A DNA stretch of 64,000 nucleotides from Halalkalibacter krulwichiae (lineage in GTDB: Bacteria; Bacillota; Bacilli; Bacillales; Bacillaceae_D), in NCBI RefSeq assembly GCF_002109385.1, contig NZ_CP020814.1:3185501-3249500 (forward strand). The letters run 5' to 3'. A program made the translations under genes and the position numbers. The number at the start of each line of letters is the position of its first letter. The first letter of the stretch is position 1. A model generated the notes under the pieces. It saw only the letters and a list, made by a program, of their open reading frames with translations. It searched no databases and was not told where the DNA came from. This document shows, piece after piece, positions 5,848-12,585 of this stretch.

Positions 5848-5872
5848 AATCACTACTACTGTAGTGATTAGT
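5848..5872 (-). terminator. Hairpin at the argD-carA junction
   Basis: ATCACTAC-AGTA-GTAGTGAT forms an 8-bp perfect stem directly after the argD stop, followed on the minus strand by TTTT. It could be a partial terminator or attenuator that lowers carAB-argF expression relative to argCJBD. The T tract is short, so full termination is unlikely. Confidence 0.4.
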
Positions 5873-7039
5873 TTTCTACACTTACTTTAGGTGCTTGATC
5901 AACGGTTGATAATACATCCTTTAAAATACCAATAGCCGTTTTAATCTCATCTTCTGTAACAATTAAAGGCGGCAAAATACGAACGACTTTTGGTCCAGCA
6001 GGTAAAACAAGTAAGCCTTTTTCGCGACAAGCTTCAATTATAGGTGCAACTTCCGTTTTACAAGCGATACCAAGCATTAGACCTTTTCCTCTTACTTCTT
6101 CAACCAACTCCAGCGAACGCAAACTTTGTTCAAGTTCTTCTTTAAACAACTCACCTTTTTCTTTAACATCAACAAGAAATTCCGGGCTAAAGACCTCATT
6201 TACTACAGCTTCTGCAGCTGCCATAGCTAAAGGATTTCCACCAAATGTTGAACCGTGACTTCCAGGGCTAAAGGCTTCTTTCAAATGCGATTTTCCAATA
6301 AGTGCTCCAACTGGAAATCCATTTCCAAGACCTTTTGCTACAGTAATAATATCTGGTGAAAGATTAAATTGTTCATATGCAAAAGCTGTTCCTGTTCGGC
6401 CGATTCCAGTTTGTACCTCATCGATTATTAATAAGCAACCATATTTCTCGCAAACATTTTTCAATGCTTCTGCGAAGTCATCATTCATCAATTGAATTCC
6501 GCCTTCACCTTGAATAACTTCAACCATTATCGCTGCTGTTTCAGTCGTTACTACCTCTTCAAGAGCTTGTTGATTATTCATTTCGATGTACGTAAATTCT
6601 GATAAGAGGGGCCAAAACCTTGATGAATTTTATCCTGACCTGTTGCAGCCATGCTCCCAAGTGTACGCCCATGAAAGGAATTTCTCATTGAAACAATATG
6701 GTGTTTACCAGTAGATTTCCTAGCAAGCTTAATAGCCGCCTCATTTGCTTCTGCACCACTATTGCAAAAGAAAACATAATCACCTACACTATTATTCACA
6801 AGTATCTGTGCAACTTTTTCTTGACCTTCAATTTGAAAAAGGTTTGATACATGCCATAATTGTTGTAATTGACTTTCTACAGCTGCATTAACTTTCGGGT
6901 GACAGTGACCAAGGTTACAAACTGCGATACCTGATATGAAATCTAAGTATTCTTTCCCCCTTGAATCAATCAACCTTGAACCATTTCCTTTAATCGGCTT
7001 AACATCCCATTTTGCATATGTGGGAAACAATGCACTCAT
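5868..7039 (-). pseudogene. argD: Acetylornithine aminotransferase, frameshifted
   Basis: PLP-dependent enzyme converting N-acetylglutamate semialdehyde to N-acetylornithine. The sequence is in two frames: 7039 down to about 6612 encodes the N-terminal part ending at GFGP, and the rest continues to 5868 in another frame. Inserting one base in the run GGGG at 6608-6611 restores [18 protein letters not shown] and a full-length protein of about 390 residues. All expected parts are present, including [21 protein letters not shown], and the PLP lysine in VAKGLGNGFPVGA. The start at 7039 has TAGGAGGAAT upstream, 12 bases after argB. The intact remainder and the homopolymer position point to a sequencing error or very recent mutation. 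Confidence 0.9.
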
Positions 7040-10447: not shown

Positions 10448-10482
10448 AAAAAAAGGAGACATGCCTATGTTAGGCATGTCTC
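10448..10482 (-). terminator. Terminator after the redoxin gene
   Basis: A perfect 12-bp stem (GAGACATGCCTA / TAGGCATGTCTC, loop TGT) is followed on the minus strand by a run of T. It ends the ctaG-SCO-redoxin unit. Confidence 0.85.
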
Positions 10483-10499
10483 TATACAATTCATTTAAT

Positions 10500-11021
10500 T
10501 TAATTTACCTTATTCAATTGTTCATAAATAATATCTGCTGTTTGTTCAATCTGGTCACCCCAAAAATCATTTATTTCATGGTGAATATATGTCCCATCTT
10601 GATCAAGAATACTAATTCCGCGGTAAGATATTTGGTCATTTTTCATTTTGGTTCGATCTAGGACAGAAAATGATTTATCTGATAAAAAAGAAAAAGTAAA
10701 TGCCCCTGCTTCTTTTAGACGTTTAGAATTTTCAGGACTATCTGTACTAATCGCATAAAGGTCAGCATCAATCCCATCAAATAATTCAATGTTATTTTGC
10801 AACTCAACTAGTTGCTGTTGGCAAAGTCCTCAGCCAACTTCTGTAAAATGAAATAAAATGGTAGCGCGCTCTTTATTTAATAGCGATACTTCTTCGCCTT
10901 GTTCATTAACAGCTGTAAGTTCTCCCTCATTCTCAGAAGTAGAATCACCACAACCCGAAAGTACAAGTGCTGCTATCGCTAAAAGTGAAAAGAGCCATAT
11001 GCATTTTCTAAATTGTTTCAT
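10500..11021 (-). CDS. Candidate selenocysteine-containing redoxin lipoprotein (in-frame TGA at UxxC)
   Basis: One frame runs from the ATG at 11021 (GGAGAG upstream) to 10500, interrupted only by a TGA at 10830-10832. Read through, it gives 173 residues: a lipoprotein signal with lipobox LSGC (Cys24), a short linker, then a thioredoxin/peroxiredoxin-like domain. The TGA is codon 64 in FTEVG-TGA-GLCQQQL, where the first cysteine of a CxxC redox motif is expected, giving UGLC. Downstream residues remain fully redoxin-like (LYAISTDSPENSKRL, FSFLSDKS, DQDGTYI). A hairpin follows the TGA. It shares the strand with a SCO protein and CtaG, suggesting an extracytoplasmic thiol/selenol oxidoreductase in cytochrome oxidase copper-site assembly or oxidative defence. 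The alternative is a Cys-to-stop point mutation; no selA/B/C/D gene is in this window. Confidence 0.65.
10796..10832 (-). promoter_or_regulatory. Possible bacterial SECIS hairpin after TGA
   Basis: In minus-strand RNA, four bases after UGA, UUUGC pairs with GCAAA; after a bulged C, AAC pairs with GUU, leaving a 13-base loop whose second base is G. An alternative fold pairs GCAAC with GUUGC around loop UAGUUGA. Bacterial SECIS elements usually have the apical loop about 16-37 bases from UGA with an early G, which both folds roughly satisfy. The stems are weak, so this is only suggestive. Confidence 0.35.
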
Positions 11022-11056
11022 CTTTCTCTCCTTTTCACACACATTAAGAATACACT

Positions 11057-11650
11057 CTATTGAATTGTTTTTAATAAGTCATCAATAATGGATTCTTGGT
11101 TTGTTTGTAATCCATCATATTTTCGTATAATCGTTCCATCAGGGTCAATTAAGAAAAAGCTTGTTGGATGCAAAATATCTTCACTATCCTCAATCTGCTG
11201 AACAGGAACCTTGAAACTTTCAAGAGCAAACTCTGAAATTTCTTCAAACTCATAACCAGTTAGAAATTTCCAAGTTTCATGGTTTGCACCGTTGTTTTCA
11301 GCATAAGAATAAAGATGATCTGATGTATCTCGTTCTGGGTCGACGGTAAAGGAAACAAACGACATGTCCACACCTTCGTCTTCCATGACGGCTTGTAACC
11401 GACTCATATTCGGTGTCATTGTAGGACATACAGTCGGACAGTACGTAAAAATAAAGCTGGCAAGCCAATATTGACCTTGTAACTCTGTTGAACCAAATGG
11501 TTCCCCGCTCTGCTCAGTAAATTCAAAATCTTGAACTTCTATTTTAGCTTCAGAAATATCGTAATCGGAAGAACCCCCATTTCCAACTTGATAGACCCAG
11601 CCACAGCCGCTAAGCATCGCTACTAACATGATTGGTACTAAGAACCTCAT
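11057..11650 (-). CDS. SCO1/SenC family copper chaperone lipoprotein
   Basis: A 197-residue membrane-anchored thioredoxin-fold protein. Its signal peptide ends in lipobox LSGC near residue 16. The copper-binding CPTVCP motif (CxxxC) is near residue 85 and the third ligand His is in ILHPTSFF near 160. SCO proteins deliver or reduce copper at the CuA site of cytochrome c oxidase subunit II. It lies 17 bases after ctaG and 35 bases before the redoxin, as one operon; B. subtilis YpmQ is the closest family member I know. Confidence 0.9.
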   Translation of the reverse strand: MRFLVPIMLVAMLSGCGWVYQVGNGGSSDYDISEAKIEVQDFEFTEQSGEPFGSTELQGQYWLASFIFTYCPTVCPTMTPNMSRLQAVMEDEGVDMSFVSFTVDPERDTSDHLYSYAENNGANHETWKFLTGYEFEEISEFALESFKVPVQQIEDSEDILHPTSFFLIDPDGTIIRKYDGLQTNQESIIDDLLKTIQ

Positions 11651-11667: not shown

Positions 11668-12585
11668 TTACGATTTCACTGTTGGTATATCGCTGATCGT
11701 TAACTCACCATCTTGTTGTTTTTCCTTCGATAACCATTGCTTAAATACATAGCCAATCGTAATGCCATACGTAATCTCTTGCATTATTTTCATTAACACA
11801 CCAGCCAACTGCTGATCCATCCTCGTCTCAAGGAAAGCAAATGAATTTGGACCGGAAAATAGAGCCATTGGAACCTCGGCTCCAGCCGGTAAACAAAACG
11901 CCATAACACTTGCCCAAATCGTAGGGTCTGTATATGTTTGATACAATGGAGCTCCAGCAAAAATAATTAACGCACAAGCTGGTGTAATTAAAATACCATT
12001 TGCAAAAATATAACCTACACGCCTTAAATCTGACAAAGGAAACGCATTAGGTAAAGGAGCAATCATATGCCACCACATTAAAACAGCCGCAAAAAGCAAT
12101 AAATATTCATATAAGCTGTGCAATACCACAGACTGCATTAACGTATCAAACATTAATGGGACATGATAAAATGAAAAAAGCCCATTAAATAGGAAAAGTG
12201 CAACAATTGGGCTCCAAATGACCCGAAAAACTTTTTCTGTTACCGGAGATCGAAAACGATCAATTACCGCTTGGAAAAACCACTTAGGGGTTCCTAATAG
12301 AAAGAGAGGTGTTGCAATAAAGTACGCAAACACCATTTGCGTCATGTGAAAACTAATCATAATGTGTCCAGCAACATAAAGTGGACTTCCCCAACCAATA
12401 TATAAAGCAACTAACGCCAAGACGAAATAGATTTTTTGCTTTAGACTTACAGGTTTTGAATCCTTGAAGCGGTGTCGCCACTTTGTTATTACTAATAAGT
12501 AAAGTATTCCAATAATGAGCAATCCAACTAACAACTCTGGAGTCCATAAAGCTCGAAAACCAAAGTTCTCAAATAATACACTCAC
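11668..12585 (-). CDS. ctaG: Cytochrome c oxidase assembly factor CtaG
   Basis: A polytopic membrane protein of 305 residues, close to the 297 of B. subtilis CtaG, with about seven hydrophobic segments. Family features include SPLYVAGHIMISFHMTQM and the His-rich stretch VLHSLYEYLLLF. In B. subtilis CtaG is needed for active caa3 oxidase and is thought to help form the CuB centre. Here it is not next to ctaCDEF but heads an operon with a SCO protein and the redoxin. The start at 12585 follows an AGGAGG-like site. Confidence 0.9.
   Translation of the reverse strand: MSVLFENFGFRALWTPELLVGLLIIGILYLLVITKWRHRFKDSKPVSLKQKIYFVLALVALYIGWGSPLYVAGHIMISFHMTQMVFAYFIATPLFLLGTPKWFFQAVIDRFRSPVTEKVFRVIWSPIVALFLFNGLFSFYHVPLMFDTLMQSVVLHSLYEYLLLFAAVLMWWHMIAPLPNAFPLSDLRRVGYIFANGILITPACALIIFAGAPLYQTYTDPTIWASVMAFCLPAGAEVPMALFSGPNSFAFLETRMDQQLAGVLMKIMQEITYGITIGYVFKQWLSKEKQQDGELTISDIPTVKS

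Follow-up and report, generated by a model that had tools for sequence, protein, structure and literature searches.

A predicted selenocysteine-containing redoxin lipoprotein encoded beside ctaG and sco in Halalkalibacter krulwichiae

Introduction

Is the TGA codon that interrupts a redoxin lipoprotein gene of Halalkalibacter krulwichiae a stop, or does it stand for selenocysteine (Sec)? The gene lies in a 64,000-nucleotide stretch of DNA (the window; G000:C1:3185501-3249500, G000 being the window's own genome and C1 a contig of 4.61 Mb) and occupies positions 10500..11021 of the minus strand. A first-pass annotation, made from the letters of the window, had described a continuous frame of 173 codons with a single internal TGA and had read the product as a candidate selenoprotein. 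The frame is indeed continuous from 11021 to 10500, running from an ATG at 11019-11021 to a TAA that ends at 10500, with one internal stop, the TGA at 10830..10832. The analysis presented here supports the Sec reading: the gene very probably (about 0.93) encodes a genuine selenoprotein with a redox UxxC pair, because the TGA is conserved, the gene co-occurs with selB, a hairpin of the selenocysteine insertion sequence (SECIS) type follows the TGA and the genome carries the machinery for Sec.

The in-frame TGA and its conservation

The TGA sits in the context FHFTEVG-TGA-GLCQQQ, at the first position of what would be a UxxC motif (UGLC), with Sec as residue 64. With the TGA entered as U, the translation matches PF00578 (AhpC/TSA) at E 1.2e-14 with 54.8 bits (cut-off 26), and PF08534 (Redoxin) with 29.4 bits (cut-off 26.6). 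The placement of the TGA where the first Cys of a CxxC motif belongs, as first claimed for TEVG-TGA-GLC, is borne out by distant CxxC homologues, which have Cys at that column.

Of the 41 genomes sampled from the GTDB family, 19 contain an orthologue (E < 1e-57); every one of these has a single TGA, in the motif GUG[L/I/H]C, and all other matches are at or below 24.4 bits. Across the order and further loci, 59 distinct TGA genes were read (in the order, those of the 76 TGA matches with a fetched locus), and in 59 of 59 the TGA falls at one column, within UGxC, USxC, UQxC, UTLC or UDFC, which agrees with the earlier argument that so precise a placement is not due to chance. The residues C24, T60, U64, C67, Q70 and L71, together with L74, S92, D115, R134 and G135, are invariant in 33 aligned sequences (U shown as C), the most distant of which is 26% identical to the window protein. 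The part of the gene behind the TGA had been described as undecayed; the first 62 codons after it give dN/dS values of 0.03-0.17 in seven chosen pairs.

Co-occurrence with selB and the selenocysteine machinery

Within the family, selB is found in precisely the 19 genomes that have the redoxin (in G021 as a partial match only, with a stop inside). The sole genome of genus g1 without selB (G016) is also without the redoxin, and in genus g6 one genome (G027) has both genes and the other (G026) neither. The 22 family genomes without selB yielded no orthologue, and hence no Cys version. An order-level profile search (397 genomes, E 1e-12) gave 84 matches in 75 genomes; 76 of these matches, in 72 genomes, carry the TGA, and all 72 genomes are among the 179 of 397 that have selB (hypergeometric 6.7e-30, a value that ignores relatedness). 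The only selB-less genome of the 75 (G252) owes its place to a distant CPVC protein without TGA. The first-pass remark that Sec use is uncommon in Bacillaceae does not hold for this order, given selB in 179 of its 397 genomes; 74 of those 179 match the redoxin family and the other 105 do not.

The TGA-less matches (8 of 84) are of several kinds. G336 has the TGA, with a frameshift before it; G178 retains a decayed remnant of the gene (L099, G178:C37:366500-369500) although selB is kept; the match in G252 and the second ones in G227, G122 and G151 are distant CxxC proteins; and the second matches in G374 and G274 are not among the genes read. Four genomes have two Sec redoxin genes each, namely G152 (L104/L126 and L125), G275 (L129), G412 and G067, and the second copy of G152 adjoins a nitric oxide synthase oxygenase gene.

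The first-pass annotation had tied its proposal to the presence of selA, selB, selC and selD. Three of these are present in the window's genome: selB (354.8 bits, cut-off 242), the tRNA-Sec gene selC (anticodon TCA, 57.7 bits against an Rfam gathering threshold of 47) and selD (405.7 bits), which carries an in-frame TGA of its own and is otherwise open. The fourth, selA, is also present yet split by a frameshift, a point taken up below. Sec-containing formate dehydrogenase was considered as the main Sec user of this genome and rejected: PF00384 has five matches, none with an internal stop, two of them being halves of one frameshifted protein.

A probable SECIS hairpin behind the TGA

Downstream of the TGA, at 10799..10815 (minus strand), folding together with published criteria for bacterial SECIS elements (PMC13188914 section 5) points to a hairpin with a 6-bp stem and a 5-nt loop, AGTTG, in which 14 nt separate the UGA from the stem and 20 nt from the loop. 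This hairpin fits the published model and is borderline on energy. The six stem pairs form without exception in the 19 family orthologues (114 of 114), and at one of these pairs two synonymous changes separate the 12 orthologues with A-U from the 7 with G-C. Over the 59 distinct genes the same pair is GC in 34, AT in 22 and GT in 3, while at the base of the stem GC occurs in 46, TA in 8 and a mismatch in 5; all six pairs form in 54 genes and five pairs in the other 5. An energy of -7.5 over 48 nt is reached by 58 of the 59, and in 52 the hairpin is part of the lowest-energy 48-nt fold.

Conservation of the hairpin greatly exceeds what synonymous recoding would give. When 62 loci (the 59 genes plus the repeats L126, L127 and L128) were recoded by pooled codon use, all six pairs arose in only 3.9% of cases, and the observed mean of 5.92 pairs compares with 4.23 as the highest mean of 400 recoding runs. 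The Leu codon TTA, the commonest elsewhere in these genes, occurs in 0 of 62 loci at either stem Leu codon. Some observations speak against this hairpin as a SECIS element: it is short, with -5.5 kcal/mol for the 17 nt alone and -7.7 over 48 nt from the UGA; the lowest-energy 48-nt fold is without it in 7 of 59 genes; and a tree-based sign test of the covarying pair is not significant (4 supported independent pairs, median p 0.25). The last test omits L047 through a position filter, while the recoding and 59-gene counts include it.

Database homologues

A single-sequence search of 5.8 billion proteins returned 12 proteins of 99-109 residues that cover 55-62% of the query and bear the name "redoxin domain-containing protein" or one like it (for example from Halalkalibacter, Alkalihalobacillus and Desertibacillus); the five placed in alignment A5 all start after the UGA. 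Searching the same database with a 33-row profile returned 32 proteins, nine of which (P0013-P0021, on contigs of 614-3118 bases) extend over the full length and show Trp in the column of the Sec. That Trp is most simply explained as a TGA translated with genetic code 4 by the gene caller; such calling on short contigs would be a systematic error, and one that hides selenoproteins.

Cys at the Sec column is found only in distant CxxC proteins (CPVC in L100-L103, Cys in P0027-P0031), and the database searches, whose reach is limited to relatives sharing short words, revealed no close Cys orthologue. The alignment foreseen in the first pass, with TGA in some homologues and Cys in relatives that lack Sec, thus appeared in part: TGA in 19 of 19 family orthologues and Cys in distant homologues were found, and a Cys version in the 22 selB-less family relatives was not. 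A phylum-wide search (398 genomes, E 1e-10) gave two matches, both in the window's order (G000 and G123), and a plasmid search gave no redoxin match. The family looks order-bound at E 1e-10, and fainter homologues elsewhere are possible.

Protein model and active site

The structure was modelled with AlphaFold 2 (AF2) from alignment A5, with Sec entered as Cys and with the nine Trp rows included; an earlier model from alignment A3 (pLDDT 62, truncated rows) was dropped. The fold is most likely of the peroxiredoxin type, that is, a PrxQ/AhpE-like thioredoxin fold, and Foldseek matched the model to the ResA structure 3c73_A (E 6.9e-9). Cys67 aligns with the Cys of the AhpE TxxC motif and R134 with the Arg of AhpE "ANRGTF", residues which we take to be the peroxidatic Cys and the catalytic Arg. 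The active-site Arg of canonical peroxiredoxins is thus retained. The peroxiredoxin motif PxxxT/SxxC(U) is lost: in TEVGUGLC an invariant Thr60 replaces the Pro and Sec64 the Thr of the PxxxTxxC found in PrxQ/BCP and AhpE peroxiredoxins.

Gene neighbourhood

The redoxin gene is preceded by a Shine-Dalgarno-like AAGGAG 6 nt 5' of the ATG (11028..11033), and a codon at 10950..10952 specifies the predicted lipobox Cys24 (LSGC), invariant in the 33 sequences of alignment A4. An intrinsic-terminator-like hairpin lies 3' of the TAA (10456..10482, found by a hairpin scan of the region); two such hairpins are seen in the region against 1.6 expected in shuffles, which by itself is weak evidence. All three are on the minus strand, as are the genes upstream. 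The SCO1/SenC copper chaperone gene sco (11057..11650; PF02630 E 2.4e-33 and synteny) ends 35 nt before the redoxin, and ctaG (11668..12585), for a caa3 cytochrome c oxidase assembly factor (TIGR02737, 411 bits against a cut-off of 279), ends 17 nt before sco. The order is ctaG, sco, redoxin and then argC. The argD gene of the window lies in two frames (6578-7039 and 5868-6581; 5868-7039, minus strand) and is therefore frameshifted.

By tblastn, sco and ctaG lie upstream of the redoxin in 18 of the 19 family loci, the remaining one (L047) being cut by a contig end. The same arrangement occurs in six named Halalkalibacter/Alkalihalobacillus loci, some from the same species as family loci, and in L075-L083, L085 and L115 from three further GTDB families. 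The selB-less family genomes all keep sco (22 of 22), and in 16 of the 22 ctaG, sco and argC stay together in a locus that gives no match to the redoxin at E 0.1, so the redoxin comes and goes with selB at the same site. Bacillus halodurans, too, has ctaG and sco adjacent (PMC9145763).

Elsewhere the neighbours differ. At L112 there is a YtkA-like neighbour. The redoxin genes of genus g52 (L089-L096) lie beside a gene for a cupredoxin-domain lipoprotein (PF13473; L089:1017-1412, minus strand) that contains the stretch CSVPCGNGHADM. This CxxxCGxGHxxM stretch resembles a CuA site.

Proposed role and alternatives

It is proposed that ribosomes read the UGA at 10830-10832 as Sec64, with SelB and Sec-tRNA binding the hairpin just downstream. 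The product would then be exported and lipid-anchored at Cys24 on the outer face of the membrane, where Sec64, in place of the Thr of TxxC, and Cys67, in place of the peroxidatic Cys, may form a UxxC redox pair. The likeliest task of such a selenol/thiol reductant would be to hold the cysteines of Sco, of the CuA site in oxidase subunit II, or of both in the reduced state; in Bradyrhizobium this is done by TlpA, which reduces both Sco and subunit II ahead of copper loading (PMC9145763, PMC6696091). On the basis of gene neighbourhood we regard the redoxin as a good, if tentative, candidate for this reductant in Sec-using Bacilli, because it is encoded after ctaG and sco and because B. subtilis is without TlpA, other oxidoreductases being presumed there (PMC9145763). 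Several points weigh against this assignment. Sco itself and ResA have been proposed as reductants in B. subtilis (PMC9145763, PMC6696091), so that a further one may not be needed; the distance from sco to the redoxin is about 0.6 kb in L075 and L076; and beyond the ctaG-sco clade and g52 the neighbours at the remaining 17 scanned loci are mixed, so the link to oxidase assembly is not universal. R134, moreover, matches the peroxiredoxin active-site Arg and would suit a peroxidase too.

The same selenoprotein may indeed reduce peroxide or organic hydroperoxides at the cell surface, as a Sec-assisted, PrxQ-like enzyme protecting the oxidase or the membrane. The modelled peroxiredoxin fold, the alignment of Cys67 and R134 with their AhpE counterparts and the invariance of R134-G135 in the 33 sequences make this a possibility to be taken seriously, albeit not the one we favour; invariant Thr60 and Sec64 stand where PxxxTxxC has its Pro and Thr, UxxC is a dithiol-type motif, and the neighbours in the window's clade are genes for copper-site assembly. 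The remaining probability goes to a role other than Sco/CuA reductant or peroxidase.

Whether this particular strain makes Sec depends on selA, which in the present assembly lies in two frames with a TAA (L031:4165-5621, corresponding to G000:C1 about 2509164-2510620). Were the break real, the strain might have lost Sec synthesis, and the UGA would end translation here while being read as Sec in relatives. This appears improbable: selB and tRNA-Sec are whole, selD is open save for its Sec-type TGA, and among the family's 19 Sec genomes selA is matched over its full length in 17 and split only in G000 and G021. A molybdopterin oxidoreductase gene of the same genome is frameshifted like argD, so that all three breaks are read most simply as assembly indel errors.

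Decoding of the UGA as Trp under code 4, or plain readthrough, has next to no chance of being right. It could draw on the nine metagenome proteins with Trp at the column, which are most simply code-4 calls on short contigs. TGA ends 3 of the 38 window frames of at least 200 codons, with a second stop just 4-10 codons on, which is a weak point against it; that the redoxin gene tracks selB is a stronger one. Under a pseudogene reading, an ordinary Cys redoxin would have been hit by a nonsense mutation or altered by a sequencing error. A lone stop in one genome would look alike, and the decayed copy in G178 offers a precedent; the reading is refuted by the same-codon TGA in 59 distinct genes, the selB co-occurrence, the hairpin and the purifying selection after the TGA.

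Relation to known redoxins

TlpA has a CxxC motif and a thioredoxin-type fold, whereas the window protein is predicted to have Sec, a peroxiredoxin-type fold and a lipid anchor. Both would be membrane-anchored extracytoplasmic redox proteins, TlpA reducing ScoI and the CuA-site cysteines (PMC9145763, PMC6696091). ResA of B. subtilis, the structural match of the model, is an extracytoplasmic CxxC reductant of Bacilli and differs in serving cytochrome c synthesis (PMC9145763); its model NF002854 matches 13 of the 33 members weakly in sequence. Against NCBIfam SelL_rel_redox (NF040769), 29 of the 33 members match weakly at E 0.001, the scores displayed being 19.2-35.7 bits where the cut-off is 120, and the window protein falls short with 19.3 bits. 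For redoxin_TUGYCR (NF053656), six of the 33 match at E 0.001 (the one score displayed is 19.2 against 100), and the window protein has no match at that E value.

Selenoproteins of PF00578 and PF08534 with a UxxC motif are already known (PMC13188914 Table 1; PMC9312934; PMC2398784), and the first-pass statement that known Sec redoxins share this layout agrees with the Prx-like and redoxin entries of that table. Compared by description, the Prx-like thiol:disulfide oxidoreductases (PF00578; UxxC, UxxU) resemble the window protein in domain, UxxC and Sec for the first Cys, and the Redoxin family selenoprotein (PF08534, UxxC) resembles it in domain and motif (PMC13188914). In contrast to the Prx-like entries, the family described here consists of predicted lipoproteins, occurs among the genomes searched in a single order of Bacilli (E 1e-10), lacks a known close Cys orthologue and is partly tied to ctaG-sco or a CuA-like cupredoxin. 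In the review the word "lipoprotein" is absent, as is "Bacill" from its main text (PMC13188914). Our literature searches found no earlier description of the family, and subscription papers might hold one. What is new is a predicted lipid-anchored Sec subfamily that spans one order and is connected with oxidase assembly over part of its distribution; UxxC Prx-like selenoproteins themselves are known.

Implications for selenium use in Bacilli

A survey of 2006 gave three selenoproteins for Bacillales (PMC1794560), and a review of 2026 describes the retention of selenoproteins by aerobic bacteria as rare (PMC13188914 section 10). Here, by comparison, a predicted Sec redoxin is spread across an order of Bacilli with selB in 179 of 397 genomes. 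The annotated copies that we found are "redoxins" of about 100 residues, truncated at the active-site UGA.

The main reason why respiring, mostly alkaliphilic Bacilli retain the complete Sec machinery may be a lipid-anchored Sec redoxin with a role in maturing the copper centres of cytochrome c oxidase. This is suggested by the close orthologues, those read being all of the Sec type, and by the joint loss of gene and machinery; we consider it unlikely rather than far-fetched, and a little less likely than we first did because of the mixed neighbourhoods at 17 loci and the other reductants proposed for B. subtilis. The family offers a tie between selenium and aerobic respiration that is concrete and can be tested, along with a candidate CuA-site reductant in Bacilli. 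If the Sec machinery is indeed kept largely for oxidase maturation, aerobic respiration in these bacteria would depend on selenium.
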